Under the pieces are notes generated by a model, which made no database searches, was not told the origin of the DNA, and was given only the letters and a program-made list of their open reading frames with translations. From the NCBI RefSeq assembly GCF_007474605.1, contig NZ_VHKL01000006.1:186001-250000 (forward strand): a stretch of 64,000 nt of DNA, given 5' to 3'. The DNA comes from Rhodoligotrophos appendicifer (GTDB lineage: Bacteria; Pseudomonadota; Alphaproteobacteria; Rhizobiales; Im1). Positions 42,085 through 59,538 of the stretch are shown here, in pieces (position 1 is the stretch's first letter; every line of letters starts with the position of its first letter). A program made the translations under genes and the position numbers.

Positions 42085-42189
42085 CAGCGGCATCCGTCGC
42101 GTCTCAGGCTCTCTCGAAAACAACACTGTGAACAAGAAGTGTGGAACGGAAATTGCTCTCCTCTGGTTTCTGGATCGGAGGAGATGATC

Positions 42190-43894: not shown

Positions 43895-44772
43895 GCGCGC
43901 TGCTGCCGGCCCACCCGCCGAAGTTCCGCCCACCACCAGCGGCATGCGACTGTCACATGCATGCCTATGGCGATCCGACGGTCTATCCTCCGCATCCCGC
44001 CTCGCCATTTCCGCCCGTCGCAGGCGGCGATGTGGAGACCTACAAGCGCGTTCGGGACATCCTGGGCCTCACGCGGGCTGTCGTCGTGCAGCCATCGGTT
44101 TATGGTTTCGACAATCGCGCTACCCTCGATGCCATGGCCGCCCTGGGGGACGTCGCGCGTGGCGTAGCTGTCGTGCCGCCCGATGTGACCGACACCGAAC
44201 TGGAGCGGCTCACGGGGCTCGGCATATGCGGCATCCGCTTCTTTATGATTGGTGGGGGTTCGCTCGGTTGGGACGATCTCGACCTGTTGGCAGCCAAGAC
44301 CGCAGCCTTCGGCTGGCATGTGCAGATGCAGCTCGATGGTCGGCACCTTGACGATCACGCCGACCGCCTCGCCCGCCTGCCCGGCCGGCTGGTCATCGAC
44401 CATAATGGCAAGTTCCTCGAGCCCGTGGACATTGGGCATCCCGGCGTCCTCGCCTTGCGCAAGCTTATCGACGGCGGCAAGACATGGGTGAAGACCTCCG
44501 GCGTCTACGAGACCTCCCGCACGGGTGCACCCGACTATGCCGACGTTGCGGTGCTTGCCCGCGCAATGATCGCCCATGCGCCGGAGCGGTGCCTCTTCGC
44601 CACCAATTGGCCCCACCCGTCGAAGCCCGGAAACCCGCCCGACGACGCAAACCTGGTGGACCTGTTTGCTCAGTGGTGCGGCGACGCGGCGATAGCGACC
44701 CGGATCATGGTCGACAACGCGGCGGAAGTTTATGGCTTCGGCCGTCCTAACCCCGCCGATCGGCATCCATGA
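43891..44772 (+). CDS. Amidohydrolase, 2-pyrone-4,6-dicarboxylate hydrolase (LigI)-like
   Basis: 293 residues from a GTG at 43891 that overlaps the dehydrogenase stop. ACDCHMHAYGDPTVYPP holds the HxH metal motif (here CHMH), GRLVIDHNGK a later histidine region and LFATNWPHPSKPG the C-terminal aspartate-region equivalent with NWPH. This layout is that of LigI and related lactonases acting on cyclic diacids. Together with the 2-hydroxyacid dehydrogenase it suggests a short pathway for a lactone or hydroxy-diacid. Its 3' end overlaps the convergent gene by 26 bases. Confidence 0.8.
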   Translation: MSALLPAHPPKFRPPPAACDCHMHAYGDPTVYPPHPASPFPPVAGGDVETYKRVRDILGLTRAVVVQPSVYGFDNRATLDAMAALGDVARGVAVVPPDVTDTELERLTGLGICGIRFFMIGGGSLGWDDLDLLAAKTAAFGWHVQMQLDGRHLDDHADRLARLPGRLVIDHNGKFLEPVDIGHPGVLALRKLIDGGKTWVKTSGVYETSRTGAPDYADVAVLARAMIAHAPERCLFATNWPHPSKPGNPPDDANLVDLFAQWCGDAAIATRIMVDNAAEVYGFGRPNPADRHP

Positions 44773-45805: not shown

Positions 45806-46012
45806 GGAAGATCCTTTGACGATCACGGTACCTGCTCTGCCGATGGCACGTTGGCCAGGCCAGAGCTCCCCTTTTTGGTACCTCTGCGATACAGTGAAGC
45901 CTCCGATCTGTATTGTTTGGACCGGTCGGCTTTTTCGAGTTCTACCGATCACATCGCTGAATTTCTGAAAGAGCCGCTCCTCAGTTTCGATCCAACATCG
46001 CCGCAAGCCGCG

Positions 46013-46018
46013 TTGACA
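46013..46018 (+). promoter_or_regulatory. Consensus -35 element of the amidohydrolase/Liv operon
   Basis: TTGACA at 46013-46018 is a perfect -35 hexamer. A 16-17 base spacer brings the -10 to about 46035-46041, which overlaps the 12-bp operator at 46039-46050. This places the putative repressor site over the polymerase-binding region. Confidence 0.55.
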
Positions 46019-46038
46019 AAACGCCTCCAGCCAGGTTA

Positions 46039-46050
46039 CCTAGCGCTTGG
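46039..46050 (+). promoter_or_regulatory. TetR operator copy 1 (CCTAGCGCTTGG)
   Basis: 12 bases identical to copy 3 (57848) and to the complement of copy 2 (54944). The two halves, CCTAGC and GCTTGG, are complementary in 5 of 6 positions. Sits 43-54 bases upstream of the first amidohydrolase start and over the likely -10 region. Confidence 0.72.
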
Positions 46051-46092
46051 AAGGCTGGAAGAAGAATACGAAGCCTCGAGATGGGAGGGAGC

Positions 46093-47163
46093 ATGGCCGT
46101 CGACCTGAGCGGCTCCATAGATTGCGACGTTCATCCGGCTGCGCCGGACATGAAGCAGTTGCTCCCCTATCTCGACGAGTTCTGGCGCGACATGATGGTG
46201 TCCCGCGGCACGGATGGTCTCGACCTCCGGAGCTATCCGCCGAACTCGCCTTTGAGTGTCCGGCCGGACTGGCGCATCGAAGGCGGCAAGGCGGGCAGCA
46301 GCATCGAGCGCTTGCGCACCGATGTGCTGGACCGCTTTCATGTCGACCACGCAATCCTGAACTGCCTCTATGGCGCGCCCGCACTCTATAACGCTGATCT
46401 CGGTGCAGTCCTGTCGCGTGCCGCAAATGACTGGCTGGCGAAGGAATGGCTCGACCGAGATCCTCGTCTGCGCGCCTCGATCATCCTGCCGACGCACAAT
46501 CCTCTTTTCGCCGCCGAGGAGATCGAGCGCCGTGCCTCCGACAGGAGGTTCGTTCAGGCGCTGATGTTCGTACAGGAGCAGATGCCCCTGGGCCGGAGGC
46601 ATTATTGGCCAATTTATGAAGCAGCTGAGAAGCATGGTCTGCCCATCGGCATCCACGCCGGCAGCCTCTATCGGAATCCAACCACCTCGCTGGGCTGGCC
46701 TTCCTATGTCGTCGAGGAATATGTCGGTCAGGCCACCGCCTTCCAGCACCAGTTGCTCAACCTGTTGGTGGAGGGCGTGTTCACCAAATTCCCTGATCTC
46801 AAGATCGTCCTCATCGAATCCGGCTTTACCTGGCTGCCGCATTTTATGTGGCGAGCCACGAAGACCTGGATCGCCCTGCGAACGGAAATCCCTTGGGTCG
46901 ACCGTTCGCCCTCCGAGATCATCCGCGAGAATGTGCGCCTCACGATTCAGCCGACCGACGCACCACCCGAACCTGGCCAGCTTGCGCGCATCTGCGATCA
47001 GCTCGGCTCAGATGACATGCTGCTGTTTTCGACCGATTATCCGCACTGGCACTTCGAGGGGGACGAGGTCCTGTCGGAAGGCATACCGGAGCGGCTGCAC
47101 CAGAAGATTATAAGGGACAATGCTGTCGCAACCTATCCACGGCTGAAGGAGCTTGTCGTATGA
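46093..47163 (+). CDS. Amidohydrolase-2 family metal-dependent hydrolase/decarboxylase (ACMSD-like), copy 1
   Basis: 356 residues from the ATG at 46093 (GGGAGGGAGC upstream). N-terminal metal site SIDCDVHP, middle PIGIHAGS (metal histidine), IVLIESGFTWLPHFMWR, and the C-terminal FSTDYPHWHFEGDEVL with the conserved aspartate. This is the ACMSD/gamma-resorcylate decarboxylase/amidohydrolase-2 group. First gene after operator copy 1; stop overlaps the next gene (ATGA), whose product is a relative with the same motifs. May hydrolyse or decarboxylate the imported compound. Confidence 0.85.
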   Translation: MAVDLSGSIDCDVHPAAPDMKQLLPYLDEFWRDMMVSRGTDGLDLRSYPPNSPLSVRPDWRIEGGKAGSSIERLRTDVLDRFHVDHAILNCLYGAPALYNADLGAVLSRAANDWLAKEWLDRDPRLRASIILPTHNPLFAAEEIERRASDRRFVQALMFVQEQMPLGRRHYWPIYEAAEKHGLPIGIHAGSLYRNPTTSLGWPSYVVEEYVGQATAFQHQLLNLLVEGVFTKFPDLKIVLIESGFTWLPHFMWRATKTWIALRTEIPWVDRSPSEIIRENVRLTIQPTDAPPEPGQLARICDQLGSDDMLLFSTDYPHWHFEGDEVLSEGIPERLHQKIIRDNAVATYPRLKELVV

Positions 47164-48263
47164 ACATTCACAATCCGGCCGTCCGTTCCGCAAAGACGGA
47201 CCTGAAGGTCATCGATTGCGACATTCACCCCACCCTGGCATCGCCCAGGACCCTGGATCCCTATCTGCCGCAGCGCTGGCGTGACCATTTTGCGACCTAT
47301 GGCCAGTTTCTGCGCGAGCCCTTCCTCGGCAGTTCCACCTACCCCAAGGCGACCCCGGCCCTCGCCCGCCTCGATTCTTGGCCGCCGACGGGAGGCCTGC
47401 CTGGCTCTGATCTCGCCTTCATGCGCGAACAGCATCTCGATCCCAATGGCGTCGAATACGGCATCCTGCAGTTCCTGGGCCCGAACGGCCAGGACCAACG
47501 CAATACGGAGTTTGGCGTGGCCTTGTGCCAGGCGGCCAATGATTGGCAGCTGGCGGAGTGGACGGAACCCGAGCCGCGCCTCAAGGCGTCCATCATGATC
47601 CCCTGCGAGGATCCCCAGGCCGCTGCCGCCGAAATCCGGCGCCGCGCCAAGAATAAGGATTTCGTGCAGATCCTGATGACCTCGCGGACGCGTGAGCCCT
47701 TGGGTCAGCGCAAATACTGGCCGATCTACGAAGCTGCGGCAGAGGAATCCATGCCGGTGGCGATTCATGTCGGCGGTGTCAGCGGCTATCCGACGACGCC
47801 GGGCGGCTGGCAATCCTTCTATTTCGAAGATCATTACAACCATTCCATCGGCATGCAGGCGCTGATGGCGAGCTTCGTGTTCGAGGGGGTGTTCGAGACC
47901 TTTCCAGAGCTGAAGCTGATCTCCGTCGAAGCGGGCTTCGGCTGGGTTCCGGCCTTCAAGTGGCGGTTGGACAAGCATTGGGAGCGGCTCCGCAGCGAGG
48001 TGCCGCACCTCAAGAGCAAGCCGTCGGAATACATGGAGCGCCAGGTCTGGTTCACCACCCAGCCCGTCGAGGAGCCCGAGCAGCGGGCCCAGATGATGGA
48101 CGTCCTGAACTGGGTCGGTTTCGACCGCCTCCTGTTCTCAACGGATTATCCCCACTGGGATTTTGACGATCCCCGCTTTGCCTTCAAATCCACCCTCTCG
48201 GAGGAGCAGAAGCGCATGGTCTACCTCGATAATGCGCGCCACGTTTTTGGTCTTCCTCAATGA
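47160..48263 (+). CDS. Amidohydrolase-2 family metal-dependent hydrolase/decarboxylase, copy 2
   Basis: 367 residues. Shares the order of motifs with the preceding protein: VIDCDIHPTLASP, FGVALCQAANDWQLAEW, PVAIHVGGVSGYPTTPGGW, KLISVEAGFGWVPAFKWRLDKHWERL and FSTDYPHWDFDDPRFAF. Tandem divergent copies could form a heteromer or act on successive intermediates. Overlaps both neighbours by ATGA (start 47160, end 48263), so translation of amidohydrolase, amidohydrolase and ferredoxin is coupled. Confidence 0.86.
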   Translation: MNIHNPAVRSAKTDLKVIDCDIHPTLASPRTLDPYLPQRWRDHFATYGQFLREPFLGSSTYPKATPALARLDSWPPTGGLPGSDLAFMREQHLDPNGVEYGILQFLGPNGQDQRNTEFGVALCQAANDWQLAEWTEPEPRLKASIMIPCEDPQAAAAEIRRRAKNKDFVQILMTSRTREPLGQRKYWPIYEAAAEESMPVAIHVGGVSGYPTTPGGWQSFYFEDHYNHSIGMQALMASFVFEGVFETFPELKLISVEAGFGWVPAFKWRLDKHWERLRSEVPHLKSKPSEYMERQVWFTTQPVEEPEQRAQMMDVLNWVGFDRLLFSTDYPHWDFDDPRFAFKSTLSEEQKRMVYLDNARHVFGLPQ

Positions 48264-48673
48264 CGCGCCATGTGGTGTTTCGGACCGACGAGATTCCGGA
48301 CGGCGAACAGCGCCTGGCGGTCGTCGAAGGGCGGACCATCTGCGTCTTCAACCAGGGCGGGGAGTTTTTCGCACTCCTCGACCGCTGTCCTCATGAGGGG
48401 GGGAGCCTCTGTCGTGGCGCCCGAATTGGCCTTGTCCAGTCGAAAGAGCCCGGCATCTACGAATATTCACGCCGCGGCGAGATGGTGAAATGCCCCTGGC
48501 ACGCATGGGAGTTTGACATCCGCACGGGCCAGTCCTGGGTCGATCCGAAGCGGATCCGGGTCAAGACCTATGAGGCCAATGTCGAGGCCGGTGAGGACCT
48601 CGTCAAGGGTCCCTATGTGGCCGAGACGTTCCAGGTCTCGGTCGAGACCGACTACGTCGTCATCGAGCTGTAA
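48260..48673 (+). CDS. Rieske [2Fe-2S] ferredoxin-like protein
   Basis: 137 residues. Cluster ligands: DRCPHEGGSLCRG (Cys-X-His) near residue 43 and VKCPWHAWEFDIRTGQ (Cys-X2-His) near residue 77. The spacing of the two boxes (about 34 residues) is wider than in small BphF-type ferredoxins because of an ~15-residue insert (QSKEPGIYEYSRRGE). Small soluble electron carrier, or an independent Rieske subunit. No oxygenase or reductase gene is in the window, so its partner is elsewhere, or it works with one of the amidohydrolases. ATGA overlap with copy 2. Confidence 0.88.
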   Translation: MTRHVVFRTDEIPDGEQRLAVVEGRTICVFNQGGEFFALLDRCPHEGGSLCRGARIGLVQSKEPGIYEYSRRGEMVKCPWHAWEFDIRTGQSWVDPKRIRVKTYEANVEAGEDLVKGPYVAETFQVSVETDYVVIEL

Positions 48674-48754
48674 TCGAGTTCAGTCGCCTCCAGGCATGGC
48701 GGTCTGGGAGCGCCCGCGCCGCTGCATGGCTCACTCTCCTTCTTCGCTTTTGGT

Positions 48755-49654
48755 ATGTCTCCAATGCTGGCGCAACAACTCCTGAACGGTCTGGTCATGG
48801 GGGCGGTCTACGGACTGTTCGCCCTCGGCTTCAATCTGATCTTCGGCGTCCATGGCATCTTGAACCTGGCCTATGGCGCGATCCTGATGGTCGGAGCTTT
48901 TGCCGGACTCGTGACCGTACTCAATGGCTTCCCTCTGTGGTCCGCCTTCATCATTGCCGCCATTGCCGCGGGCATCGTCTCCGTCGTCATCGACCTGGTG
49001 GCATTCCGACCCTTGCGGCGCAGCAATGAGATCGAATTTGCCGCGATCATCTCCAGTATCGGCGCCGACATGGTGCTCACCACATTGGCGCAGCGCCTGT
49101 CCAACACCCAGGTCTTCCGCTTTCCCTACGGCACCTTTCCCGATTTCGCTTTGACCTTTCTCGGCCTCAGGATCACGGGCCTGCAGATCACCATCGTGGC
49201 GACCGTCGCCATCATGGCTGCAGGGATCGCGATCTATCTCTATGGCACCTCCTTCGGGCGCCAGGTCCGTGCGGTTGCCGAAAGCGAGCGCGCGGCGTCT
49301 CTGCTCGGTGTCAACGCAAACAGCGTCTATCTCCAGACCTTCTTCATCTCCGGCGCCATGGCCGGCGTCGCGGGCGTCCTGGTGGGGCTTGCCTTCAACA
49401 CCGTCCAGTTCTTGATGGGCGAACCCTATCTGCTGCGGGGCTTCGTCGTGCTCATCATCGGCGGATTGGGCAGCCTCAAGGGCGCTTTGGCAGCAGGCTT
49501 CCTGCTCGGCCTGATCCAGGCGCTCTGCACGGCCTATCTCCCCGCCGGCCTCAGTGATCCCGTCATATACGCTCTGCTCTTCCTCATCATTCTTGTCCGT
49601 CCCAGCGGCATTTTCGGCAGCGCTGTGAAGGACGTGCGGGCGGTGCGTCAATGA
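48755..49654 (+). CDS. LivH-type ABC transporter permease
   Basis: 299 residues from the ATG at 48755 (an ATG at 48764 is equally possible). QQLLNGLVMGAVYGLFALGFNLIFGVHGILNLAYGAILMVGAF is the LivH N-terminal signature, and YLLRGFVVLIIGGLGSLKGALAAGFLLG the C-terminal one. Inner-membrane channel subunit with LivM at 49651. 81 bases after the ferredoxin, on the same strand, so probably still in the operon. Confidence 0.9.
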   Translation: MSPMLAQQLLNGLVMGAVYGLFALGFNLIFGVHGILNLAYGAILMVGAFAGLVTVLNGFPLWSAFIIAAIAAGIVSVVIDLVAFRPLRRSNEIEFAAIISSIGADMVLTTLAQRLSNTQVFRFPYGTFPDFALTFLGLRITGLQITIVATVAIMAAGIAIYLYGTSFGRQVRAVAESERAASLLGVNANSVYLQTFFISGAMAGVAGVLVGLAFNTVQFLMGEPYLLRGFVVLIIGGLGSLKGALAAGFLLGLIQALCTAYLPAGLSDPVIYALLFLIILVRPSGIFGSAVKDVRAVRQ

Positions 49655-50526
49655 CCGGGATCTTCGCCCCCTATTTTCCCATTCTGGACCTCGTTCTGAT
49701 CCATTGCGGGCTCGCGCTCAGCCAATACATCGTGCTTCGCGCCGGGGTGTTCTCCGTGGCGACGGCCGGCTTCACCTCCATGGGCGCCTATGCGGCGGCC
49801 CTGCTCGCCCGCGATGCCGAGATGGGGGTCGCCTTGGCGCTGCTGGCGGCACTTGTCGTCGGCCTCGTGACGGCGATCATCTTGGCCCTGCCTCTAGCCC
49901 GGGTTCGCGGCGTCTATCAGGCGATCGCCACCTTGGCCTTCGTCCAGATCGTCCTGTCATTGATGTATTATGCGGAGGACGTGACCGGTGGTCCTCTTGG
50001 CCTGAACGCTATCCCGAAGACCGTCGGGACGGTCCATATCTTCGTGGCCGTTTGCGCCTGCCTCTACGTCATCATCGCGATTGGTCGCAGCCGCCTGGGC
50101 TCGGCCCTTGACGCGATCCGGCAGGATGAAATCGTCGCGGCCTCCTTGGGCGTCTCGGTACCACCCCTGCATCTCCTCGCCTTCGCCCTCAGCGGCGCGA
50201 TCGCCGGTCTCTTCGGCGGCCTCATTGCCCTCCACACCTACAGCATCGAGCCCGCCCAATTCGGTTTCCCGCTCCTCGTCTCCATCCTGGCCATGGTGGT
50301 CCTCGGCGGGCGACGGTCGGTCTGGGGCCCAATCGTCGGGGCTCTCATCCTCACCATTCTGCCGGAACTGGCGCGTCCCCTGGCGGAAAACCGCGCCCTG
50401 ATCCACGGCATATTGCTGGTGGTCATCATCGTCTTCCTGCCGCGCGGCATCGTCGACAGCCTGTCGGCCCGGTTTAAGAAGAACCCCTCTCGCTTGGAGC
50501 CTGATCGCGATGTCGCTGCGACTTGA
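49651..50526 (+). CDS. LivM-type ABC transporter permease
   Basis: 291 residues; start overlaps the LivH stop (ATGA). LALSQYIVLRAGVFSVATAGFTSMGAYAAALL is the LivM signature, and GVYQAIATLAFVQIVLSLMYYAEDVTGGPLGLNAIP the periplasmic-loop region that defines the family. C-terminus ends ILLVVIIVFLPRGIVDSLSARF, as usual. Overlaps LivG by 17 bases. Confidence 0.9.
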   Translation: MTGIFAPYFPILDLVLIHCGLALSQYIVLRAGVFSVATAGFTSMGAYAAALLARDAEMGVALALLAALVVGLVTAIILALPLARVRGVYQAIATLAFVQIVLSLMYYAEDVTGGPLGLNAIPKTVGTVHIFVAVCACLYVIIAIGRSRLGSALDAIRQDEIVAASLGVSVPPLHLLAFALSGAIAGLFGGLIALHTYSIEPAQFGFPLLVSILAMVVLGGRRSVWGPIVGALILTILPELARPLAENRALIHGILLVVIIVFLPRGIVDSLSARFKKNPSRLEPDRDVAAT

Positions 50527-51262
50527 CGCCGTCTCGAAGAGCTTCGGCGGTCTCCTCGCCGTCTCGGACCTCAGCCTTGAGGTGCGGCCTGGGACTGTGA
50601 CTGGCCTGATCGGCCCGAACGGGGCGGGCAAGACCACGGTCGTGAATCTCATCTCCGGGATCCTGGCCCCCACTGTCGGGACGATCTCCTTTGAGGATCG
50701 TGACATCACCACCTATTCGCCGACCGATGTCGCGCTGACCGGCATCGTTCGCACCTTTCAAAATGTGCGGCTCCTGCTCGACGCGACCGTGCTGGAGAAC
50801 GTTGCCCTGGGGCTCTATCGCCACGGTACGGCCTCTTGGCTGTCCGCCCTTCTCGGCCTCCCGAGTGCCACGCGGGAAAAGCGCGCCATGCGTGACGAGG
50901 CCCGGGAACTGCTCGGCTCATTCGGCCTGGGGGCCTATCCTGATGCCCTGGTGGGCAGCCTCTCCTACGGTCATCAACGCCGCGTCGAGATCGCCCGTGC
51001 CTTGGCAGCCCGCCCTAAGCTGCTCCTGCTGGATGAGCCCGTCGCCGGCATGAACGACGTGGAAGCCGGCGAGCTTGGGGACATCTTCGTCGATCTTGCC
51101 GCCAAGGGCATGGCCGTCCTGCTGGTGGAGCACAACATGCGCCTGGTCACGGCCGTCTGCCGCGATGTCTACGTCTTGGATACGGGTCGTCTCATCGCCT
51201 CGGGCACGCCCGAAGCAGCCCTCAGATCGCCCGCGGTCCAGCAAGCCTATCTCGGAGCCTAG
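50510..51262 (+). CDS. LivG-type ABC transporter ATPase
   Basis: 250 residues. Walker A IGPNGAGKTTVVN, signature-like LSYGHQRRVEIARAL, Walker B LLLDEPVAGMNDVEAGEL and switch LLVEHNMRLV, the typical LivG motif set (VEHNM). Overlaps LivM by 17 bases and is 3 bases upstream of LivF. Cytoplasmic partner of LivF. Confidence 0.92.
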   Translation: MSLRLDAVSKSFGGLLAVSDLSLEVRPGTVTGLIGPNGAGKTTVVNLISGILAPTVGTISFEDRDITTYSPTDVALTGIVRTFQNVRLLLDATVLENVALGLYRHGTASWLSALLGLPSATREKRAMRDEARELLGSFGLGAYPDALVGSLSYGHQRRVEIARALAARPKLLLLDEPVAGMNDVEAGELGDIFVDLAAKGMAVLLVEHNMRLVTAVCRDVYVLDTGRLIASGTPEAALRSPAVQQAYLGA

Positions 51263-51265
51263 CCG

Positions 51266-51973
51266 ATGCTCACCGTCGAAGATCTCACCATCTCCTATGG
51301 CGGCGTTCACGCGGTGCGCAATGCTTCCCTCGAGGTGCGTCAGGGGGAGATGGTCGCGCTGATCGGCTCTAACGGCGCGGGGAAATCCTCCCTCCTCAAC
51401 GGCTTGAGCGGCATCGTCCGCCCCCGCTCGGGATCGGTCCGCATGGAGGGCCAGACCCTTTCGGGTCAGGCGGCCTATCGCATTGCTCGCCTCGGCCTCA
51501 TTCAAGTTCCTGAGGGCCGTCATGTCCTCGGGTCCCAGACCGTGACGGAGAATCTTCTGCTCGGCCGTCTCGCCCTCGGTGATCGCCAGCCGCAGCAGGA
51601 TCTTCCGCAGGTTTTCAAGCTGTTTCCCATTCTCAAGGAGCGTGCCGGCCAGCGCGCCGGCTCCCTCAGCGGCGGCCAGCAGCAGATGCTGGCCATCGGC
51701 CGCGCCCTCATGGGATCGCCCAAGGTCCTGCTCCTCGACGAACCCAGCCTCGGCCTTGCCCCGATCATCATTGCCCAGGTCTTCGAGGCCCTGCGCGCCT
51801 TGAACCAAGCGGGCCTCACCATCCTCGTTGTTGAGCAGAATGCCCGCCGCGCGCTCACCGTCTCCAAGCGCGCCTACATCCTCGAACGCGGCCGCATCGC
51901 CTATCACGGCGACAGCACCGATCTTCTCCACGACCAAAGGGTGACGGAATCCTATTTGGGCGTGATTGCCTGA
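51266..51973 (+). CDS. LivF-type ABC transporter ATPase
   Basis: 235 residues. Walker A IGSNGAGKSSLLN, LIQVPEGRHVLGSQTVTENLLLG (typical LivF), signature LSGGQQQMLAIGRAL, Walker B LLLDEPSLGLAPIII and switch LVVEQNARRAL. Forms the ATPase pair with LivG. Starts 3 bases after the LivG stop. Confidence 0.92.
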   Translation: MLTVEDLTISYGGVHAVRNASLEVRQGEMVALIGSNGAGKSSLLNGLSGIVRPRSGSVRMEGQTLSGQAAYRIARLGLIQVPEGRHVLGSQTVTENLLLGRLALGDRQPQQDLPQVFKLFPILKERAGQRAGSLSGGQQQMLAIGRALMGSPKVLLLDEPSLGLAPIIIAQVFEALRALNQAGLTILVVEQNARRALTVSKRAYILERGRIAYHGDSTDLLHDQRVTESYLGVIA

Positions 51974-52006
51974 ACTGCCACGAAACGAAAAACATCGGAG
52001 GGAACA

Positions 52007-53140
52007 ATGAAGAAGAGTTTGAGACTGCTGCTCCTGGGTCTTGCAGGTGCGGTTCTTTCTGCCGGCCCCGTCCTGTCGGCGGAAATCCCGATCGGCTTGA
52101 TGCATGCCCTGACCGGCAATGTCGGCTTTGTCGGCACCACCATGGCCAACGGCGCCATTCTCGGAGCCGAGGAGATCAACAAGAACAAGGTTCTTGGCGA
52201 CGACACGATTAAGCTGATCGTCGAGGATACGGCCAGCGATCGCAACCAGGCCATGAACCTGGTGACGAAGCTTGCCACCGCCGACAAGGCGCTCATGATC
52301 GTCGGCCCCACCTCAAGCATCGAATCCCTGGCCTCGGCCCCCGTCGCCAATGAGCAGGGCATCCCCCTCTACACGTTGGCGCTCTCCTCGGACATCTTCA
52401 AATCCGGCCCATGGGCCTTCAAGGGTCTCGTCGGCACCAGCGCCTATATGAAGCCCGTCGGCGAGTATATCGTCGGCACTCTCAAGCCGAAGCGCGTGGC
52501 GATCATCTTCGACCGCCAGAACGACTCGACCGTCACTCAGAAGAAGTTCCTCAAGGAAGACCTGGAGAAGAACGGCATCGAGATCGTGTCCGAAAACGGC
52601 ATATTGGGCACGGATACCGATTTCTCCGTCATCGCCACCCAGGTCGTCGGCGAGAAGCCTGATGCAGTCTTCGTCGCCGCCCAGGCCCATGTCGGCGCAA
52701 ATGTTCTGGCCCAGTTGCGTCAGGCCGGACTGCCGAAGGAAACCCAGCTCATCGGCTCCATGAACATGGCCGCACCGACCCTGATCAAGCTCGGCGGCGA
52801 TGCCGTTGAAGGCACCCTGCTCGTCGGAGATTTCGCCCCGGATGGCTCGACCAATCAGGAGAGCAAGGATTTCGTCGCTGCCTACACGGCCCGCTTCGGG
52901 ACCGCTCCCGACAATTTCGCCGCGGGCGGCTACGCGCAGATGAAGGTGGTGGGGACCATCCTGAAGGAACTTGGCCCGAACCCCACGCGTGAGCAGGTTC
53001 GCGACAAGCTGACATCGGCTGTCAAGAATGTTCCCGTGGTGCTGGGAACCGGAAGCTACAGCATCGGCGAGGGCCGTCAGGTCGAATACACCCCGGTCCT
53101 GCTGAAGGTCGAGGGCGGCAAGTTCGTCGGTGTGAAATAG
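52007..53140 (+). CDS. Liv-type ABC transporter periplasmic binding protein
   Basis: 377 residues from an ATG with GGAGGGAACA upstream. Signal peptide MKKSLRLLLLGLAGAVLSAGPVLSA, then EIPIGLMHALTGNVGFVGTTMANGAILGAEEIN. Type I receptor fold segments VGPTSSIESLASAPVANEQGIPL and VAIIFDRQNDSTVTQKKFL. Last gene of the amidohydrolase/Liv operon; a 12-bp hairpin follows. Probably binds the substrate of the whole regulon (inference from the shared operator). Confidence 0.9.
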   Translation: MKKSLRLLLLGLAGAVLSAGPVLSAEIPIGLMHALTGNVGFVGTTMANGAILGAEEINKNKVLGDDTIKLIVEDTASDRNQAMNLVTKLATADKALMIVGPTSSIESLASAPVANEQGIPLYTLALSSDIFKSGPWAFKGLVGTSAYMKPVGEYIVGTLKPKRVAIIFDRQNDSTVTQKKFLKEDLEKNGIEIVSENGILGTDTDFSVIATQVVGEKPDAVFVAAQAHVGANVLAQLRQAGLPKETQLIGSMNMAAPTLIKLGGDAVEGTLLVGDFAPDGSTNQESKDFVAAYTARFGTAPDNFAAGGYAQMKVVGTILKELGPNPTREQVRDKLTSAVKNVPVVLGTGSYSIGEGRQVEYTPVLLKVEGGKFVGVK

Positions 53141-53160
53141 ACCTGATCCGTGAACTGCTC

Positions 53161-53187
53161 TGGCTCCCTGCCGACGGCGGGGAGCCA
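53161..53187. terminator. Strong bidirectional hairpin between convergent operons
   Basis: TGGCTCCCTGCC (53161-53172) pairs over all 12 positions, one of them a G-U wobble, with GGCGGGGAGCCA (53176-53187) around a GAC loop. It begins 20 bases after the binding-protein stop and lies 8 bases from the stop of the convergent ThDP gene, so it can end transcripts from both sides. Confidence 0.75.
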
Positions 53188-53195
53188 GGTCGATT

Positions 53196-54869
53196 TCAGC
53201 GTTCGACCGCTTCGACGAGCTCGGAAATGAATGGCGCCTGCACGTCCGCATTCACCTTGCAGTCGAGCAAGATCGGCTCGTTCCAATCCGCAATTTGCGT
53301 ACTGAGCCGCTCCAGATCCTCCAGGCTGCGGATCGTGGCGCTCTGAAATCCCAATGTTTCCGCCAAAGGTCCGAAGTCGATATCGGCGAAGACTGAGGTC
53401 GCCTCAGGCAGGTTGCGCTGTCGGCAGAATTGCAGCTCTGCGCCGTAGGCACAGTCATTGACCACGACGATGACCAGCGGAATGCCGTTGCGTGCCACCG
53501 TCTCGAGCTCGGACAGGCTCATCAACAGGCCGCCATCGCCGATGACGAGGATATTCGTCTCCTCCGGCCGTCCGATGGCAAATCCAAGCGCGGTTCCGAA
53601 CCCTGCTCCCATGGAGGCAAAATCGCTGCTCACCTTGAGATGGCCTGGCCCGTCGACCGACAGATAGCCCGCCACCATGAGGAAGTTTCCGGCGTCATAG
53701 ATCAGATTCCGCTTCTGCGGCAGCAGCCTGTTGAGGGCCACCGCCAGCGACCGTGGATCCAGGGTACGATTTGTGTTAGCGGGCTGAAAATCTCCTTCGA
53801 TGTCGAAGGTCGCGATCTCGCGGAGCACCGTCTCGTTGTGGAAGGGCCTGTCGCGCTCGGGCCCTCGTTCCACCTGAGCCCCCATCCGCTCTGCCACCTC
53901 CCTCACGTCCCCCACCACGGCGACATCGGCCGGGTGCCATCGCCCGATATTGCGCCGGGAATGATCAACTTGGATGAGAGGAACTTCGGGCAAGGCCTTG
54001 CCTTTGCTCGTCGTATAGAAGTTCAGGCTTGCGCCGAAGACGAGCACGCAATCGGCTTGCTCGATGTATTTCCGGCCGAGGGAATGGGAGAATGAGCCGC
54101 AAACGCCGAGATTGAGGCGATGCCCCCGAAACAGGTCTTTGCCCTTGAAGGTGGTAGCCAGCAGGGCGCCGGTCGTTTCCGCCAACCGCTCCAGGGCCTC
54201 CCGCGCACCGGCGCGATGGGCGCCCTGCCCCGCCAGGATGAGCGGCCGCCGGCTGGTCGCAAGCAGCGCCATGGCGGCTGCAAGTCCAGCCTCTCGCACC
54301 TTCGGCGTGCTCGCGGCAACGGCGAGGGCGGGTGCTTCCGCCTCAGCAGCGTCGATCTGCGCGTTCTGCACGCTTGCCGGAATATGCAGGGTAACCGCGG
54401 CGCCCTTCAATGCGGCGGTGATCGCCGAAGCGAGTGTCGCCCGCGCCGTATGCGTGCTGGTGACGGAGAATGTCTGGAGGCCCGCCGCCGCCATGACGGC
54501 GGTGGCATTATAGGCCTTGTAGTCCGGGCCGATGCCGTTCGGGTCGGCATCAGGCTCGCCATCGCCCATGATGATCAGCACCGGTGAACCGCTGCGCGCC
54601 GCGACCATGATGCCATGCATGCCATTTGCTGCCGCGGGCCCGCGCCCGATCACCGCGATTCCGAGCCGACCTGTCGCTGCCGCATATCCTTCCGCCGCCA
54701 GCACGGCATTGGTCTCGTGCCGCGCCGAGCAGAGCCGGACACCGATGGCGTCCAGAGCCACGAAGAGCCCGATCGTATCGTCGCTCATCAGGCCGAAACA
54801 TGTATCGGTCCCCAGGCGGGCGATGTCCTCGGCCAGCACCTGGTAGACCGGCGTCTGCATGGTGGTCAT
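53196..54869 (-). CDS. Thiamine diphosphate-dependent enzyme (acetolactate synthase/decarboxylase superfamily)
   Basis: 557 residues. N-terminal PYR domain with the catalytic glutamate in SARHETNAVLAAEGYA near residue 50; central TPP_enzyme_M domain; C-terminal PP domain with the ThDP motif GDGGLLMSLSELETVARNGIPLVIVVVND (GDG to ND) near residues 440-470. The GRGPAAANGMHGI stretch is typical. Not a standard IlvB: the usual FAD/quinone-binding segment is not evident. Candidates include a 2-keto acid decarboxylase, acyl-CoA lyase or sulfoacetaldehyde-type transferase. Transcribed from a promoter carrying operator copy 2, downstream of the TetR gene. Confidence 0.85.
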   Translation of the reverse strand: MTTMQTPVYQVLAEDIARLGTDTCFGLMSDDTIGLFVALDAIGVRLCSARHETNAVLAAEGYAAATGRLGIAVIGRGPAAANGMHGIMVAARSGSPVLIIMGDGEPDADPNGIGPDYKAYNATAVMAAAGLQTFSVTSTHTARATLASAITAALKGAAVTLHIPASVQNAQIDAAEAEAPALAVAASTPKVREAGLAAAMALLATSRRPLILAGQGAHRAGAREALERLAETTGALLATTFKGKDLFRGHRLNLGVCGSFSHSLGRKYIEQADCVLVFGASLNFYTTSKGKALPEVPLIQVDHSRRNIGRWHPADVAVVGDVREVAERMGAQVERGPERDRPFHNETVLREIATFDIEGDFQPANTNRTLDPRSLAVALNRLLPQKRNLIYDAGNFLMVAGYLSVDGPGHLKVSSDFASMGAGFGTALGFAIGRPEETNILVIGDGGLLMSLSELETVARNGIPLVIVVVNDCAYGAELQFCRQRNLPEATSVFADIDFGPLAETLGFQSATIRSLEDLERLSTQIADWNEPILLDCKVNADVQAPFISELVEAVER

Positions 54870-54943
54870 CTGATCTCCTGCTGGCGTTTCTGTTCATCTG
54901 AAGACCGGGCCGACGGACGTCGCCCAGGTGTTAATCAAAGCGA

Positions 54944-54955
54944 CCAAGCGCTAGG
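54944..54955 (-). promoter_or_regulatory. TetR operator copy 2 (CCTAGCGCTTGG on the minus strand)
   Basis: CCAAGCGCTAGG as read on the plus strand, exactly the complement of copies 1 and 3. It lies 75-86 bases upstream of the ThDP gene start and downstream of the TetR gene stop (55018), so the ThDP gene can be controlled separately from the ligase-MaoC-TetR genes. Confidence 0.7.
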
Positions 54956-55017
54956 AAGCTGCACAATTCTGATGTCGGCTTGAATGGGTGATCCGGCCCC
55001 CCTGTCAGCACTCGGAC

Positions 55018-55650
55018 TTATTTCGTCCCCACGATGCTGGCTGCGAAGTCGCGGGAGATGTCGTTGATATCCATCCGCTCGGGCCGATACCATTCTCCGG
55101 CCCAGTTCAACGCACCGAGCAGCAGCAACCGTACCGAATCCGGCGAAATCGAGGGATCGATCAGCTTCGCGTCGTAGAGTTCCTGGACCAGGCCCTCCCA
55201 TAGCGTCTCATAACGCCGCCTCTCCACCCGACAGCCGCTGCGCACCGCCTGGGGAAGAAAGGCGAAGGCGCGGATGCTGGCGGAGGTATAGTTGCTATGC
55301 TCCAGCGACGACAGCAGATGGCCCTTGATCGCCGCCTCGAGCCGCTGGCGCGGTGTCGCATCCTTCGGCAGGCTGTCCAGGGCCTTGGCCACAGCATTAT
55401 AGACGACGAGCACGCCTTCGTTCACCACCGCCTCTACGATAGCATCTTTCGAAGGGAAGTGATGATAGATGCTGCCGCCCTTGATCCCCACCTCCGTGGC
55501 GATGGCGCGCGTCGTGGTCGCCTCGTAGCCCTTGAGCCGCAACAGCAGCGCGGCGGCATTCAGGATCTGCCGTCGGACACCGATCGCTTCGATCTCGTTG
55601 TCCTTGACCTGCCCCCCATCATACGCCGCGATGGCCTGCTCTTGCTCCAT
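55018..55650 (-). CDS. TetR-family transcriptional regulator, probable regulator of the regulon
   Basis: 210 residues. HTH: RRQILNAAALLLRLKGYEATTTRAIATEVGIKGGSIYHHFPSKDAIVEAV, a standard TetR N-terminus; the ligand domain is not assignable. Lies 4 bases after the MaoC gene on the minus strand, so it is in the ligase-MaoC-TetR operon and is likely autoregulated through operator copy 3. FadR/PaaR-type TetR proteins usually bind acyl-CoA, so an acyl-CoA product of the ligase may be its inducer (inference). Confidence 0.9.
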   Translation of the reverse strand: MEQEQAIAAYDGGQVKDNEIEAIGVRRQILNAAALLLRLKGYEATTTRAIATEVGIKGGSIYHHFPSKDAIVEAVVNEGVLVVYNAVAKALDSLPKDATPRQRLEAAIKGHLLSSLEHSNYTSASIRAFAFLPQAVRSGCRVERRRYETLWEGLVQELYDAKLIDPSISPDSVRLLLLGALNWAGEWYRPERMDINDISRDFAASIVGTK

Positions 55651-55654
55651 GTCC

Positions 55655-56146
55655 TCATCCTACAACATGCGCGGCATCCGCGAGAAGCCCCCAGGATGCA
55701 TCCGTCGGCCTCGTCCGCCGCATCAGCAGTCGCGCCGAGCCGGTCTGGGCGATGGTCCCGTCCTGATTGATGAGGGTGATCGCAAGCTCCACGATCCCCC
55801 GCTCGGGATCTCGGACGGCGCGCTTTCCGGACACTTCGATCAGGGCGTGGATCGTATCGCCGGACCGAACGGGCGCTTTGAAGTCCCATGTGACCCCGAG
55901 CAGCGCCACCACCGTTCCATCGATGAGGTCAAGACGCGCCGCCAGTCCGAAGGCAACGCCGATGCCGAGGGGCCCATGCGCGATCCGTCCACCGAAGTCG
56001 GTGTTCGCCGCAAACTCCTCGTCCGTGTGAACCGGATTATAATCGCCCGTCAGGCCGGCGAAAGTCCCGACATCGGCTTCCGTGATGGTCCGACCTGGCG
56101 TCAAGTATCGCTGGCCAATCTCGAATTCTCCGAACACGCGTCCCAT
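55655..56146 (-). CDS. MaoC-family (R)-hydratase/dehydratase, copy 1
   Basis: 163 residues from the ATG at 56146 (GGAAAGG upstream). Hydratase-2 motif in AGLTGDYNPVHTDEEFAANTDFGGRIAHGPLGIGVAFGLAARL, with Asp in DYNPVHTD and His, plus the hotdog fold's TWDFKAPVRSGDTIHALIEV. Catalyses hydration of a 2-enoyl-CoA. Between the CoA ligase and the TetR gene on the minus strand. Confidence 0.85.
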   Translation of the reverse strand: MGRVFGEFEIGQRYLTPGRTITEADVGTFAGLTGDYNPVHTDEEFAANTDFGGRIAHGPLGIGVAFGLAARLDLIDGTVVALLGVTWDFKAPVRSGDTIHALIEVSGKRAVRDPERGIVELAITLINQDGTIAQTGSARLLMRRTRPTDASWGLLADAAHVVG

Positions 56147-56209
56147 GAAAACCTTTCCACTATGAGCCGGCAAGCAAGGCCGCTGATGAGTAAGTCACGA
56201 CCTTTGCCG

Positions 56210-57826
56210 TCAGGCCTGGGCCTCGTCCCGCAGATCCTTTCTGCGGATCTTGCCGGTCACCGTCATCGGCAGGCTCTCTCGGAACTCGATCTGTCTCGGA
56301 TATTCATGCGCCGACAGCCGCGCCTTGACGAAGGCCTGGACGTCCGCATGAACCGCCGCATCGATGGCGATACCCTCCCGCGCCACGATGAAGGCTTTCA
56401 CGACCTCCCCGCGCACCGGGTCGGGAACGCCCACCACGGCCACCATGGCCACGGCCGGATGTGCCATCAGACACTCCTCGATCTCGGTTGGCCCGATGCG
56501 ATAGCCGCTGGAAATGATGACGTCGTCATTGCGGGCGTGAAACCAGAAATAGCCGTCTTCATCACGGCTGCCGGTATCGCCCGTCAGCAGCCAGCCATTG
56601 CGGAACTTGTCCTCTGTCGCTTCGGGCTTGTTCCAGTAGCGCAGGAAGAACACGGGGTCCGGCGCCTTGATCGCGATGGTGCCCGTAGCACCTGGCGGCA
56701 GGGGATGGCCGTCACCATCGACGACCTCCACCACATGGCCGGGCATTGCCCTCCCCATGGAGCCTTTCTTGAGCTCCATGATGGATGCGCAATTGCCGAT
56801 CGTCAGATTGGCCTCGGTCTGGCCGTAGAATTCGTTCATCGTCAGCCCGAAGCTTTCGCGGCCCCACTCCAGCATCTCGTCGCCGAGCCGCTCGCCGCCG
56901 CTTGCCACACTGCGCATCTTGTAGCCGAAGCGCTCCTGCGGCCGGCTGACCTGGCGCATCATCTTGAGTGCGGTCGGCGGCATGAAAGAATTGCGCACGC
57001 CGTGGCGGGCGAGCAAGGCGAAGGCCTCCTCGGGGTCGAATTTCTGCAGCCGCTTGGCGACCACCGGCACGCCGTGGAACAGCGACGGCAACAGCACATC
57101 CATCAATCCCCCGGCCCAGGCCCAGTCTGCCGGTGTCCACATCCGGTCGCCGGGCTGGGGAAAGAAGTCATGGGGGAATTCGACCCCGGGCATGTGCCCG
57201 AGCAAAACGCGGTGGCCGTAAAGCGTGCCCTTGGGATTGCCGGTCGTGCCCGACGTATAGACCATGATCGCCGGATCGTCCGAAGCTGTGTCCACGCGCG
57301 TATGATCAGCTGAGGCGCGTTCGAGCAGCGCTGTCCACTCCAGCACGCTTCCCTCATGGCGGTCCTCGATGGCGATCAGCACGGGCGGCGCCTCCAGCGC
57401 GCCCACGATATCGAGGAGCTTCTCGATCCCCGAGCTGTTGGACACGACGGCTTTGGCGCCGCTGTCCTTAAGCCGGTAGTCCAGTGCTTCCGGACCGAAC
57501 AATGTGAACAGAGGCAGTGCAATTGCGCCAATCCGGTAAGCAGCCAGATGCGTAATGATGGCCTCCGGGCATTGCGGCAGCAGGATCCCCACTCGGTCGC
57601 CCCGCACGACCCCATGCGCCGACAGCGCGTTGGCGAGCCGCTTCGACTGCTCCTGCAGATAGGCGAAGCTCAACTCCCTGGCGCCATCCCCAGCCTCGAA
57701 GATGATGGCCGTCCCGCCCGCCGCCGCATGGCGGTCGCAGATCGCCTCGGCGATGTTGAACCTGTCTGGCACGGCCCAGCGGAAGCCGGCACAGACCTCC
57801 TCATATGTCCTCCCCGACAACGTCAT
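56210..57826 (-). CDS. Acyl-CoA synthetase / AMP-dependent CoA ligase (acetyl- or medium-chain-type)
   Basis: 538 residues from the ATG at 57826 (AAGGGAAATCG upstream). P-loop MVYTSGTTGNPKG near residue 190, FYGQTEAN, WLLTGDTG and the C-terminal K region VTGKIRRKDLRDEA. The core resembles acetyl-CoA synthetase-like/medium-chain acyl-CoA ligases of the short type. Activates a carboxylic acid to its CoA ester with ATP in the cytoplasm. Divergent from the carboxylase operon across operator copy 3. Confidence 0.88.
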   Translation of the reverse strand: MTLSGRTYEEVCAGFRWAVPDRFNIAEAICDRHAAAGGTAIIFEAGDGARELSFAYLQEQSKRLANALSAHGVVRGDRVGILLPQCPEAIITHLAAYRIGAIALPLFTLFGPEALDYRLKDSGAKAVVSNSSGIEKLLDIVGALEAPPVLIAIEDRHEGSVLEWTALLERASADHTRVDTASDDPAIMVYTSGTTGNPKGTLYGHRVLLGHMPGVEFPHDFFPQPGDRMWTPADWAWAGGLMDVLLPSLFHGVPVVAKRLQKFDPEEAFALLARHGVRNSFMPPTALKMMRQVSRPQERFGYKMRSVASGGERLGDEMLEWGRESFGLTMNEFYGQTEANLTIGNCASIMELKKGSMGRAMPGHVVEVVDGDGHPLPPGATGTIAIKAPDPVFFLRYWNKPEATEDKFRNGWLLTGDTGSRDEDGYFWFHARNDDVIISSGYRIGPTEIEECLMAHPAVAMVAVVGVPDPVRGEVVKAFIVAREGIAIDAAVHADVQAFVKARLSAHEYPRQIEFRESLPMTVTGKIRRKDLRDEAQA

Positions 57827-57847
57827 TCGATTTCCCTTGTATCGCTC

Positions 57848-57859
57848 CCTAGCGCTTGG
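57848..57859 (+). promoter_or_regulatory. TetR operator copy 3 (CCTAGCGCTTGG), divergent promoter
   Basis: Identical to copy 1. It lies 22-33 bases before the CoA-ligase start (minus) and 77-88 bases before the carboxyltransferase start (plus), so one bound repressor can control both operons, and through the ligase operon the TetR gene itself. Confidence 0.72.
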
Positions 57860-57935
57860 TAGGTCTAAAGCATTCTTTGGCTGCCGGCAAGTCGGGCACC
57901 CAATCGGGTCGTCACGGAAACAAGAGATCGGGAAA

Positions 57936-59534
57936 ATGCCTGTGTTGGACACGAGGGTCCGGACCGATCCGGGCTTTGAACAGAACACGTCTGCCTATGA
58001 CACCCTTTTGCAGCTTCTGCGCGATCGCCACCGTCATGTTCTCATGGGCGGCGGCGAGAAATTTCGCGATCGTCACCGCCAGCGGGGCAAGATCCCGGTG
58101 CGTGAACGCATCGACCATCTTGTGGATCCGCTCTCGCCTTTTCTGGAACTGTCGCCTCTGGCCGCTTGGGAACTCTACGGCAATGAGGTGCCCTCCGCCG
58201 GCATCGTGACCGGCATCGGTGTCGTCGCCGGCACGCCCTGCATGATCATCGCCAATGATGCAACGGTTAAGGGCGGCTCGTTCTTCCACGAAACCGTCAA
58301 GAAGCACCTGCGCGCCCAGGAGATCGCCCTCGAAAACCGTCTTCCCTGCATCTATCTGGTGGATTGCGGCGGTGCCTTTCTCCCCGAGCAGGACCGCGTC
58401 TTTCCGGACCGCGACCATTTCGGAGGCACCTTCTTCCAGCAATGCCGCATGTCCGCCGCCGGCCTGCCGCAGCTTTCAGCCGTCTTCGGCGGCTGCACGG
58501 CGGGCGGCGCCTATATTCCCGCCTTGTCGGACGAGGTGGTGATGGTCCGCGGCAGCGGCCGCATTCATCTCGGTGGCCCACCCATCGTCAAGGCCGCCAT
58601 CAACGAGATCGTCGATGGTGAAACCCTCGGCGGTGCCGAGATGCATTCCACCGTCTCCGGCGTCTCCGATTACATCGCCGGGACGGAGCTGGAGGCGATT
58701 GGCAAGCTGCGCGACATCGTCGCCGCCCTCAATTGGCCGCAGCAGCATCGGACGACGGCGCGCGAGACCCGTGAACCGCTTCACGATCCGGCTGAGCTGG
58801 GTGGCATCGTCGGCACCGATCTTAAACAGCCCTTCGACGTCCGCGAAGTCATAGCTCGCATGGTCGATGGCAGCGAGTTCCAGGAGTTCAAACCCGCCTA
58901 TGGCGCCACTCTCGTTTGCGGCTTTGCCTGGATCCACGGCGAGCCCGTGGGCATCCTCGCCAATAATGGCGTGCTTTTCTCCGAATCCGCGGTGAAAGGC
59001 GCCCATTTCATCGAGCTCTGCGATCAGCGCCGCATCCCGCTCCTCTTCCTCCAGAACATTACCGGTTTCATGGTGGGCACCGAGGCCGAGCGCGGGGGGA
59101 TTGCCAAGCATTCGGCAAAGTTGGTCTACGCGGTGGCGAATGCCCGCGTCCCCCGTTACACGGTCATCATCGGCGGCTCCTACGGCGCCGGCAATTACGG
59201 CATGTGCGGCCGCGGTTTCCAGCCCCGCTTTCTCTTCGCCTGGCCGAATGCCAGGATCGCCACCATGAGCGCCGACGTCGCCGCCGCGGTGGTCACCGAC
59301 CTCCGCCGCGCCAGCCTCAGTCGCGGTGCCGCCGACGAGGCCGAGATCGCGCGCGTCCATGAGGCGACGCGCACCCAATTCGATGAGCAGAGCACGCCCT
59401 ATTATGCCACGGCTCGGCTGTGGGATGACGGCATCATCGAACCCGCCCAGACCCGCGACGTTCTCGGGCTCTGTCTTGCACTGGCCGCTCGCGAGATCGA
59501 TCTGCCGGACCACCGCCCCGTCTATCGGATGTAG
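57936..59534 (+). CDS. Acyl-CoA carboxylase carboxyltransferase (beta) subunit, MCC/GCC/PCC-like
   Basis: 532 residues from the ATG at 57936 (GAGATCGGGAAA upstream). RDHFGGTFFQQCRMSAAGLPQLSAVFGGCTAGGAYIPALSDE and VRGSGRIHLGGPPIVKAAINEIVDGETLGGAEMHSTVSGVSDY closely follow methylcrotonyl-CoA carboxylase beta; the second half has LFLQNITGFMVGTEAERGGI and GGSYGAGNYGMCGRGFQPRFLF. Transfers CO2 from biotin to an enoyl- or acyl-CoA. Four bases upstream of the alpha subunit. Substrate could be a branched 2-enoyl-CoA (methylcrotonyl- or geranyl-type). Confidence 0.88.
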   Translation: MPVLDTRVRTDPGFEQNTSAYDTLLQLLRDRHRHVLMGGGEKFRDRHRQRGKIPVRERIDHLVDPLSPFLELSPLAAWELYGNEVPSAGIVTGIGVVAGTPCMIIANDATVKGGSFFHETVKKHLRAQEIALENRLPCIYLVDCGGAFLPEQDRVFPDRDHFGGTFFQQCRMSAAGLPQLSAVFGGCTAGGAYIPALSDEVVMVRGSGRIHLGGPPIVKAAINEIVDGETLGGAEMHSTVSGVSDYIAGTELEAIGKLRDIVAALNWPQQHRTTARETREPLHDPAELGGIVGTDLKQPFDVREVIARMVDGSEFQEFKPAYGATLVCGFAWIHGEPVGILANNGVLFSESAVKGAHFIELCDQRRIPLLFLQNITGFMVGTEAERGGIAKHSAKLVYAVANARVPRYTVIIGGSYGAGNYGMCGRGFQPRFLFAWPNARIATMSADVAAAVVTDLRRASLSRGAADEAEIARVHEATRTQFDEQSTPYYATARLWDDGIIEPAQTRDVLGLCLALAAREIDLPDHRPVYRM

Positions 59535-59538
59535 ACCC

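Follow-up and report, generated by a model that had tools for sequence, protein, structure and literature searches.

A predicted TetR regulon with a conserved 16-bp operator joins ligase and carboxylase genes to a putative dinuclear oxygenase operon in Rhodoligotrophos appendicifer

Three copies of one short sequence in a 64,000-nucleotide stretch of Rhodoligotrophos appendicifer DNA (assembly GCF_007474605.1, contig NZ_VHKL01000006.1, positions 186,001 to 250,000; the whole stretch is called the window here) are very probably operators of the TetR-family regulator encoded at 55018-55650. To judge from the sequence, this regulator would govern as a unit the genes for an acyl-coenzyme A (acyl-CoA) ligase, a carboxylase, a putative dinuclear oxygenase with its Liv-type importer and, more weakly, a thiamine diphosphate (ThDP)-dependent enzyme. 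By Pfam assignment there are three gene runs, a rightward oxygenase/ferredoxin/Liv run (46081-53140), a leftward ligase-MaoC-TetR run (57829-55018) and a divergent carboxylase run (57936-61536). The TetR protein is the sole transcription factor among the 17 proteins scanned from 42908 to 61536; an initial annotation of this DNA had called it the only dedicated one in the stretch.

The 12-mer CCTAGCGCTTGG occurs exactly at 46039-46050 (plus strand), 54944-54955 (minus strand) and 57848-57859 (plus strand). The initial annotation had reported these three copies and no others in the window, which an exact search confirmed, and had placed each in a gap before a gene, which agrees with our gene models, where all three are intergenic. 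The gap before the amidohydrolase gene measures about 275 bp if the preceding alpha/beta hydrolase starts at ATG 45805 and 74 bp if it starts at TTG 46006; the TetR-ThDP gene gap is 148 bp and the ligase-carboxylase gap 106 bp. In a pattern search of the whole genome (5,593,515 bases, 33 contigs), of the kind suggested earlier to see whether hits concentrate on this gene set, the exact 12-mer was found three times, each time as a window copy. One-mismatch forms, of which 36 variants are possible, occupy 42 places genome-wide (39 distinct, three palindromic ones counting twice). From this background about 1.1 exact copies are expected per genome and 0.012 per 64 kb, hence a probability of about 3e-7 for at least three in 64 kb, and the symmetrical form CCWAGCGCTWGG has 3 window matches against 0.02 expected. 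The 42 one-mismatch places are what could be said for chance recurrence or a general repeat, an explanation to which we give next to no credence: all three genome copies of the 12-mer lie here at that probability, as had been foreseen without a calculation, the one-mismatch places are scattered across many contigs, and the site is conserved phylogenetically.

The initial annotation had taken the 12-mer itself as the operator; its exact recurrence stands, but it is only part of the conserved unit, a 16-bp dyad CCTAnC-N4-GnTAGG (Table 1). Relatives preserve the outer CCTA/TAGG arms, many of them without the inner symmetry, and we therefore no longer regard the 12-mer as the complete operator. 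Close orthologues of the TetR protein were found at ten loci, L040 to L049, with 60–80% best-segment identity, the next relative having 35% (among the best 80 of 160 TetR relatives that a peptide-pattern scan found in the genome collection). Nine genomes account for the ten loci, as L045 and L046 lie in the same one. The order ligase-MaoC-TetR is kept in eight of the ten, and in L047 and L049 the TetR gene adjoins that of the carboxyltransferase, without this ligase. A putative operator with dyad symmetry stands near the TetR gene at every locus, which answers the earlier suggestion that orthologous clusters be compared for a conserved dyad. At zero mismatches CCTANCNNNNGNTAGG gave 10 matches in 173,253 bases, one per locus and each upstream of the TetR operon, and none in 20 dinucleotide shuffles; with up to one mismatch there were 16 matches (shuffle mean 0.8, largest 4). 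The dyad reads CCTACCAAGCGCTAGG in the window, CCTAACAAGCGCTAGG in L040 and L041, CCTACCAATCGTTAGG in L042, L043, L045, L046 and L048, CCTACCAACCGTTAGG in L044, CCTATCAAGCGTTAGG in L047 and CCTACCAAACGTTAGG in L049.

The six extra one-mismatch sites all have the form TCTAACAGTTGTTAGG, five of them in the carboxyltransferase promoter region and the sixth (L046) close to a contig end. In L043 an acyl-CoA dehydrogenase gene starts across the TCTAACAGTTGTTAGG site, its product being 66% identical to a Sulfitobacter protein so annotated, and from the similar flank we infer the same dehydrogenase at the other five. A genome of the same genus as the window (G003) has three sites: one precedes the ligase operon, the other two an acyl-CoA dehydrogenase gene beside a second TetR gene. 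On a Sulfitobacter plasmid, a TetR protein with 40% identity has CCTAACAAGTGTTAGG 23 bp before its start, and carboxylase, hydratase and dehydrogenase genes adjoin it. As many of the ten loci are close kin (L042 to L046 and L048), the independent lineages are fewer, namely the window, L040/L041, the L042 group, L047, L049, G003 and Sulfitobacter.

In searches with the TetR protein, the own genome alone had a match at E<=1e-45 among 385 genomes of the class, a result that does not prove absence as up to eight candidates were scored per genome; at E<=1e-40, two of the four genomes of the family had a match, the own genome included. Plasmid homologues reached at most 40.1% identity among the matches listed (15 of 265 records).

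The two adjacent TetR copies of G003 (G003:C1:1573751-1575009, L038/L039) are 64% and 51% identical to the window TetR, and the two predicted operators at the neighbouring acyl-CoA dehydrogenase promoter lie 25 bp apart. L043 has an open reading frame (ORF) of 1173 residues (10589-14107) between the TetR and dehydrogenase genes, which resembles an indolepyruvate ferredoxin oxidoreductase and may provide the keto-acid step of the related pathway. Two perfect dyads, CCTAACGAGCGTTAGG and CCTAACTAACGTTAGG (L080, 7176-7191 and 7221-7236), immediately precede a distant TetR match whose contig is labelled as an archaeal metagenome-assembled genome (Methanomethylophilaceae); this operator class may be very old or recently transferred, or the contig may be misassigned.

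The relatives also bear on where the recognised dyad is centred. In a variant compatible with our reading, the dyad has shifted to a 12-bp centre (half-sites CCAAGC and GCTAGG), as in the AnCAAGnnCTTGnT of the mycobacterial repressor KstR2, so that the CCTA arm would be dispensable and the three copies equal in strength. Exactly these 12 bp are common to all window copies, each symmetrical at 5 of 6 positions about that centre, and sites of KstR2 tested by electrophoretic mobility shift assay contain CCAAGCGCTTGC and CCTACCAAGC (PMC3068626). Furthermore, in a comparison of the window, L040 to L049 and G003, G at operator position 9 goes with Gly at residue 58 of the TetR protein in four of four loci, and T, C or A there goes with Ala in eight of eight. 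Residue 58 is hence a possible specificity residue, although the pattern is confounded by kinship and may stem from shared ancestry. The sites of G003 and Sulfitobacter and those before dehydrogenase or carboxylase genes are symmetrical about the 16-bp centre and show 12-bp symmetry at only 1-2 of 6 positions, and we regard the shifted centre as unlikely.

If the dyad is the operator of this TetR, it should be found with the TetR gene and not with the ligase as such. Among 78 other genomes of the class with a strong ligase homologue, 29 loci were examined, and none of these stretches had a TetR, MaoC or carboxylase match (E<1e-10 to the window proteins). Upstream DNA was present at 28, and none of these had a site with up to one mismatch in the 1 kb before the ligase start; two had one 1.2-1.5 kb upstream. 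Loci whose contigs end at or inside the gene were left out here and in the later comparisons (L215 for the ligase, L231 for the ThDP gene, L175 and the overlapping L179 for the oxygenase). We assign the operator to this TetR because the two occur together at all ten orthologous loci while the site is missing from the 1 kb before all 28 ligase genes lacking the regulator, and the pairing persists across the different layouts of L047, L049, G003 and Sulfitobacter. That the site serves another DNA-binding protein, with the TetR gene a mere neighbour, seems very improbable; its appeal is that 15 places in the own genome match this TetR at E<=0.001 and that TetR binding is itself deduced, and it must contend with the same pairing through differing layouts, with the site's absence at the ligase promoters examined and with the 16-bp palindrome that also forms the operator of the TetR repressor BkaR. 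The earlier claim that the operator ties the cluster to its TetR thus gains support from co-occurrence, with the ThDP copy as its weakest part.

A matrix built from 19 non-window sites, many from close relatives, and scanned across the 64-kb window ranked the copies at 57848, 46039 and 54940 first, second and fourth. The orthologue-derived pattern CCTAMCAANCGYTAGG, allowing two mismatches, had 12 own-genome matches, including the window copies with 0, 1 and 2 mismatches, against 54 for its reversed control, hence the result speaks for specificity for the cluster and not for enrichment. A looser pattern, CCTANCNNNCGNTAGG, was dropped as unspecific, with 710 own-genome matches at up to two mismatches against 2864 for the reversed control.

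Of the other nine own-genome matches to CCTAMCAANCGYTAGG, one, CCTAACATTTGTTCGG (C3:463880-463895; L029 1228-1243, L185), precedes the best TetR paralogue match (33% identity) by no more than about 260 bp, beside a divergent ORF that presumably encodes an enoyl-CoA hydratase. It is perhaps the paralogue's operator, of the same class, and cross-talk between the two would be possible.

A dyad spanning the region from the -10 element to the start point is the classical position of a repressor that excludes RNA polymerase. In TetR-operon promoters a 17-bp spacer separates a TTGNNN-like -35 element from a -10 element like TATACC or TAACCT, which ends within the first 2-3 bases of the dyad. This geometry was among the top two candidates of a crude promoter scorer at 11 of 12 such promoters (window, L040, L042 to L049 and G003), and the promoter of L041, TTGCGG-17-TAACCT, was read by eye outside the top two. 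The window's oxygenase promoter has the same layout, the CCT of its TTACCT forming the first bases of copy 1, just as the initial annotation had seen copy 1 overlap the -10 element after TTGACA. Read toward the dehydrogenase side, six of six sites show the geometry. At dehydrogenase/carboxylase sites, the opposite end of the dyad adjoins a -10-like TATAAG or TATAAC, and in the window TCTAAA takes that place on the carboxylase side; with such elements at both ends, a single dimer could shut off the two divergent promoters. For the ligase and oxygenase promoters, the geometry points to a repressor that acts by blocking the -10/+1 region.

In the mechanism we propose, a TetR dimer would sit on the 16-bp dyad when substrate is absent, from inside the -10 element over the transcription start. 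It would block the ligase-MaoC-TetR operon, amounting to autorepression, and from the same site also the divergent carboxylase operon; the oxygenase/Liv operon would be blocked too, and the ThDP gene less strongly. After uptake and activation of the substrate, a pathway acyl-CoA would bind TetR and release it from DNA, so that uptake, oxygenation, activation and carboxylation would be induced together. The inducer is plausibly a branched C5 acyl-CoA, such as isovaleryl-CoA or 3-methylcrotonyl-CoA.

The regulator's TetR_N domain (PF00440, E=2.5e-17) scores above the cut-off, and the modelled protein (mean predicted local distance difference test score 82.4) begins with three short N-terminal helices. 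Foldseek comparison with the PDB matched it to PfmR, DarR, KstR2, BkaR (6yj2), FadR and AibR with isovaleryl-CoA. Several of these regulate fatty-acid, sterol or acyl-CoA metabolism, and DarR is a cyclic di-AMP (c-di-AMP) sensor by its titles. The inducer is probably an acyl-CoA.

The closest solved structures to the carboxyltransferase are methylcrotonyl-CoA carboxylase (MCC) beta (3u9r) and M. tuberculosis AccD1, and its segment EQDRVFPDRDHFGGTF retains all three phenylalanines of the MCC specificity motif. These residues have been linked to specificity for 3-methylcrotonyl-CoA, and accD1-accA1 was shown to be an MCC of leucine degradation (PMC4347857). The combination of ligase, MaoC protein and MCC-type carboxylase suggests a branched C5 acyl-CoA. 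An acyl-CoA dehydrogenase accompanies the cluster in L043, G003 and Sulfitobacter; among the proteins scanned from 42908 to 61536 there is neither a fadE19-type acyl-CoA dehydrogenase nor bkdABC (the search for the latter covered these proteins only). The cluster therefore lacks both an acyl-CoA dehydrogenase and a keto-acid dehydrogenase, and is not simply a branched-chain pathway of the BkaR type.

The two amidohydrolase-like proteins of the oxygenase run match chains of PDB entry 6m1w, the first matching chain A and the second matching chain B best. The PDB listing names this entry only amidohydrolase; we take it to be AibH1H2, partly because AibH2 is 378 residues long (PMC7782822). The metal ligands listed for AibH2 are D25, H27, H211, E265, D337 and H340 (PMC10401708), and all six are matched in the second subunit (D21, H23, H203, E257, D329 and H332). 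The adjacent gene encodes a small Rieske protein with C-x-H ... C-x2-H. With PF04909, the six ligands and this Rieske neighbour, the putative oxygenase matches the bioinformatic description of amidohydrolase-related dinuclear oxygenases in PMC10811679. Homologues with AibH2-like and Rieske partners occur in five of nine TetR-bearing genomes, beyond the stretches of up to 10 kb that flank TetR.

Several observations weigh against our reading. No site with up to two mismatches was found upstream of any of the six oxygenase homologues with upstream DNA (53–56% identity, four other TetR-bearing genomes), hence oxygenase control is seen in one genome only. The ThDP copy has lost one 4-bp arm, its distal arm reading GCGA for CCTA; it ranks below an unrelated third-ranked site at 28508 in the matrix scan, and the promoter scorer found no standard -35/-10 geometry there. 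In G003, 1.3 kb separate the carboxyltransferase start from the closest site with at most one mismatch. The own genome has no close orthologue of the relatives' acyl-CoA dehydrogenase, the best matches (39-40% identity) lying on other contigs. Five DarR chains, some with c-di-AMP or cAMP in their titles, are among the first thirteen fold matches, and the fold therefore does not settle an acyl-CoA inducer.

In an alternative reading, TetR governs only its own and the divergent carboxylase operon, the oxygenase and ThDP copies being remnants of duplication or weak sites without effect. At the ten orthologous loci, sites with up to one mismatch stand only at ligase, TetR, dehydrogenase or carboxylase promoters, and besides the six oxygenase homologues, the seven ThDP homologues with upstream DNA (of eight found) all lack one; the degenerate arm of the ThDP copy fits in as well. 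This restricted regulon is nonetheless distinctly unlikely in our judgement, as copy 1 lies on the -10 element of a TTGACA promoter with the geometry of the conserved ligase sites and ranks second in 64 kb, and the three copies, though their flanks look unrelated, agree in all 12 bp, which does not resemble decay. We expect the ThDP copy, as the weakest, to confer weaker and less certain control.

We hence keep to operators at all three promoters, under which the absence of sites at oxygenase and ThDP homologues means that a conserved repressor-operator pair appears to have gained clients here. Recruitment of the oxygenase to the regulon, based on one genome, appears to be the unusual part. 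Around two plasmid homologues of the oxygenase no site with up to one mismatch was found in the stretch, and a regulator of the Lrp/AsnC or GntR family lies nearby. Tentatively, and with less than even confidence, we suggest that the conserved repressor-operator pair of a methylcrotonyl-CoA-type pathway captured the entire operon of a dinuclear (possibly Mn/Fe) oxygenase and its importer through an operator on its -10 element, yielding a new route for a branched, perhaps quaternary-carbon, substrate. If this is true, the inducing acyl-CoA would reveal the natural substrate of the oxygenase.

Immediately before the cluster, a D-2-hydroxyacid dehydrogenase and a third Amidohydro_2 protein are encoded as a rightward pair (42908-44769); the stretch from 41207 to 46038 contains no site with two or fewer mismatches. 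After the carboxylase genes, 62355-63548 encodes an ABC ATPase with a CBS domain, presumably ProV-like.

Table 1. Predicted operators, promoter and genes of the cluster, in window coordinates.
Feature	Position	Strand	Remarks
Predicted oxygenase-operon promoter	46013..46041	+	TTGACA, 17 bp, TTACCT; last three bases of -10 are the first three of the operator
Predicted operator copy 1	46039..46054	-	CCTTCCAAGCGCTAGG on minus strand; overlaps -10 of oxygenase/Liv promoter; matrix rank 2
AibH1-like amidohydrolase-related subunit	46081..47163	+	PF04909
AibH2-like catalytic subunit, putative amidohydrolase-related dinuclear oxygenase	47160..48263	+	six AibH2 metal ligands conserved
Rieske ferredoxin, AibG-like	48260..48673	+	C-x-H ... 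C-x2-H
Liv-type (branched-chain amino acid family) ABC importer	48755..53140	+	two permeases, two ATPases, binding protein
ThDP-dependent enzyme	53196..54869	-	three TPP enzyme domains
Predicted operator copy 2	54940..54955	+	GCGACCAAGCGCTAGG; upstream of ThDP gene; matrix rank 4
TetR-family regulator, proposed repressor	55018..55650	-	TetR_N and TetR_C_24
MaoC-like hydratase	55655..56173	-	Pfam
Acyl-CoA ligase	56210..57829	-	AMP-binding
Predicted operator copy 3	57848..57863	-	CCTACCAAGCGCTAGG on minus strand; between divergent ligase and carboxylase genes; matrix rank 1
Carboxyltransferase subunit, MCC beta type	57936..59534	+	EQDRVFPDRDHFGGTF
Biotin carboxylase / biotin carrier subunit	59533..61536	+	Pfam

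A regulon shows which genes act together. Few native substrates of amidohydrolase-related dinuclear oxygenases are known (PMC10811679), and an oxygenase under the same repressor as a ligase and an MCC-type carboxylase would narrow the substrate search to compounds yielding branched short acyl-CoAs. The regulon would also offer a simple reporter assay for the inducer and, as its operator can be read in relatives, could be predicted elsewhere.

In the open-licence literature our searches turned up nothing on this TetR or its operator, and none of the literal consensus strings led to a paper; a search for a TetR regulon with ligase, carboxylase and MaoC genes listed two papers, neither of which describes one to judge by title and abstract start. 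For the oxygenase, the three-component monooxygenase AibH1H2/AibG and SfbO are the closest known counterparts; for AibH1H2 too, the genes for two PF04909 subunits and a Rieske ferredoxin lie together (PMC7782822, PMC10401708, PMC10811679). In Rhodococcus, the aib cluster encodes a regulator of the LysR family and a reductase of its own, AibF, whereas here a Liv importer and a putative TetR operator are present and no reductase was found in the window's oxygenase operon.

Among regulators, BkaR (Rv2506/MSMEG_4718) is a mycobacterial TetR repressor of a branched-chain keto-acid regulon that includes accD1-accA1, a hydratase and the CoA ligase fadD35 (predicted in M. tuberculosis), and its operator core is a 16-bp palindrome, GTTA-N-T-N4-A-N-TAAC, at its own divergent promoter and a few others (PMC3920632). 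The window system shares with it the length and layout of a 16-bp operator with 4-bp outer arms at TetR and other catabolic promoters, and a regulon with an MCC-type carboxylase pair, hydratase and CoA ligase. It differs in its arms (CCTA/TAGG here, GTTA/TAAC in BkaR), in lacking an acyl-CoA dehydrogenase and bkdABC in the window cluster, and in adding the oxygenase, Liv importer and ThDP enzyme. The two proteins, compared by phmmer on the PDB and by fold match, are 22-23% identical in the fold alignment. KstR2, a TetR repressor of mycobacterial cholesterol catabolism, has a palindrome in three intergenic regions near its own gene (PMC3068626). Its solved structures match the window TetR by sequence (E ~1e-10) and fold; its 14-bp centre AnCAAGnnCTTGnT, its pathway and a fold-alignment identity of 22-23% set it apart. 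PaaR (TTHA0973) of Thermus thermophilus, a TetR regulator of phenylacetyl-CoA genes, recognises a pseudopalindrome, CNAACGNNCGTTNG, near the CTAAC..GTTAG of the window's relatives, and differs in its 14-bp consensus, phenylacetate pathway and distant organism (PMC6651687). The predicted regulon adds a new case to a common type of gene control in bacteria, here apparently extended to an unusual metal-dependent oxygenase, and its closest known systems are the mycobacterial BkaR and KstR2.

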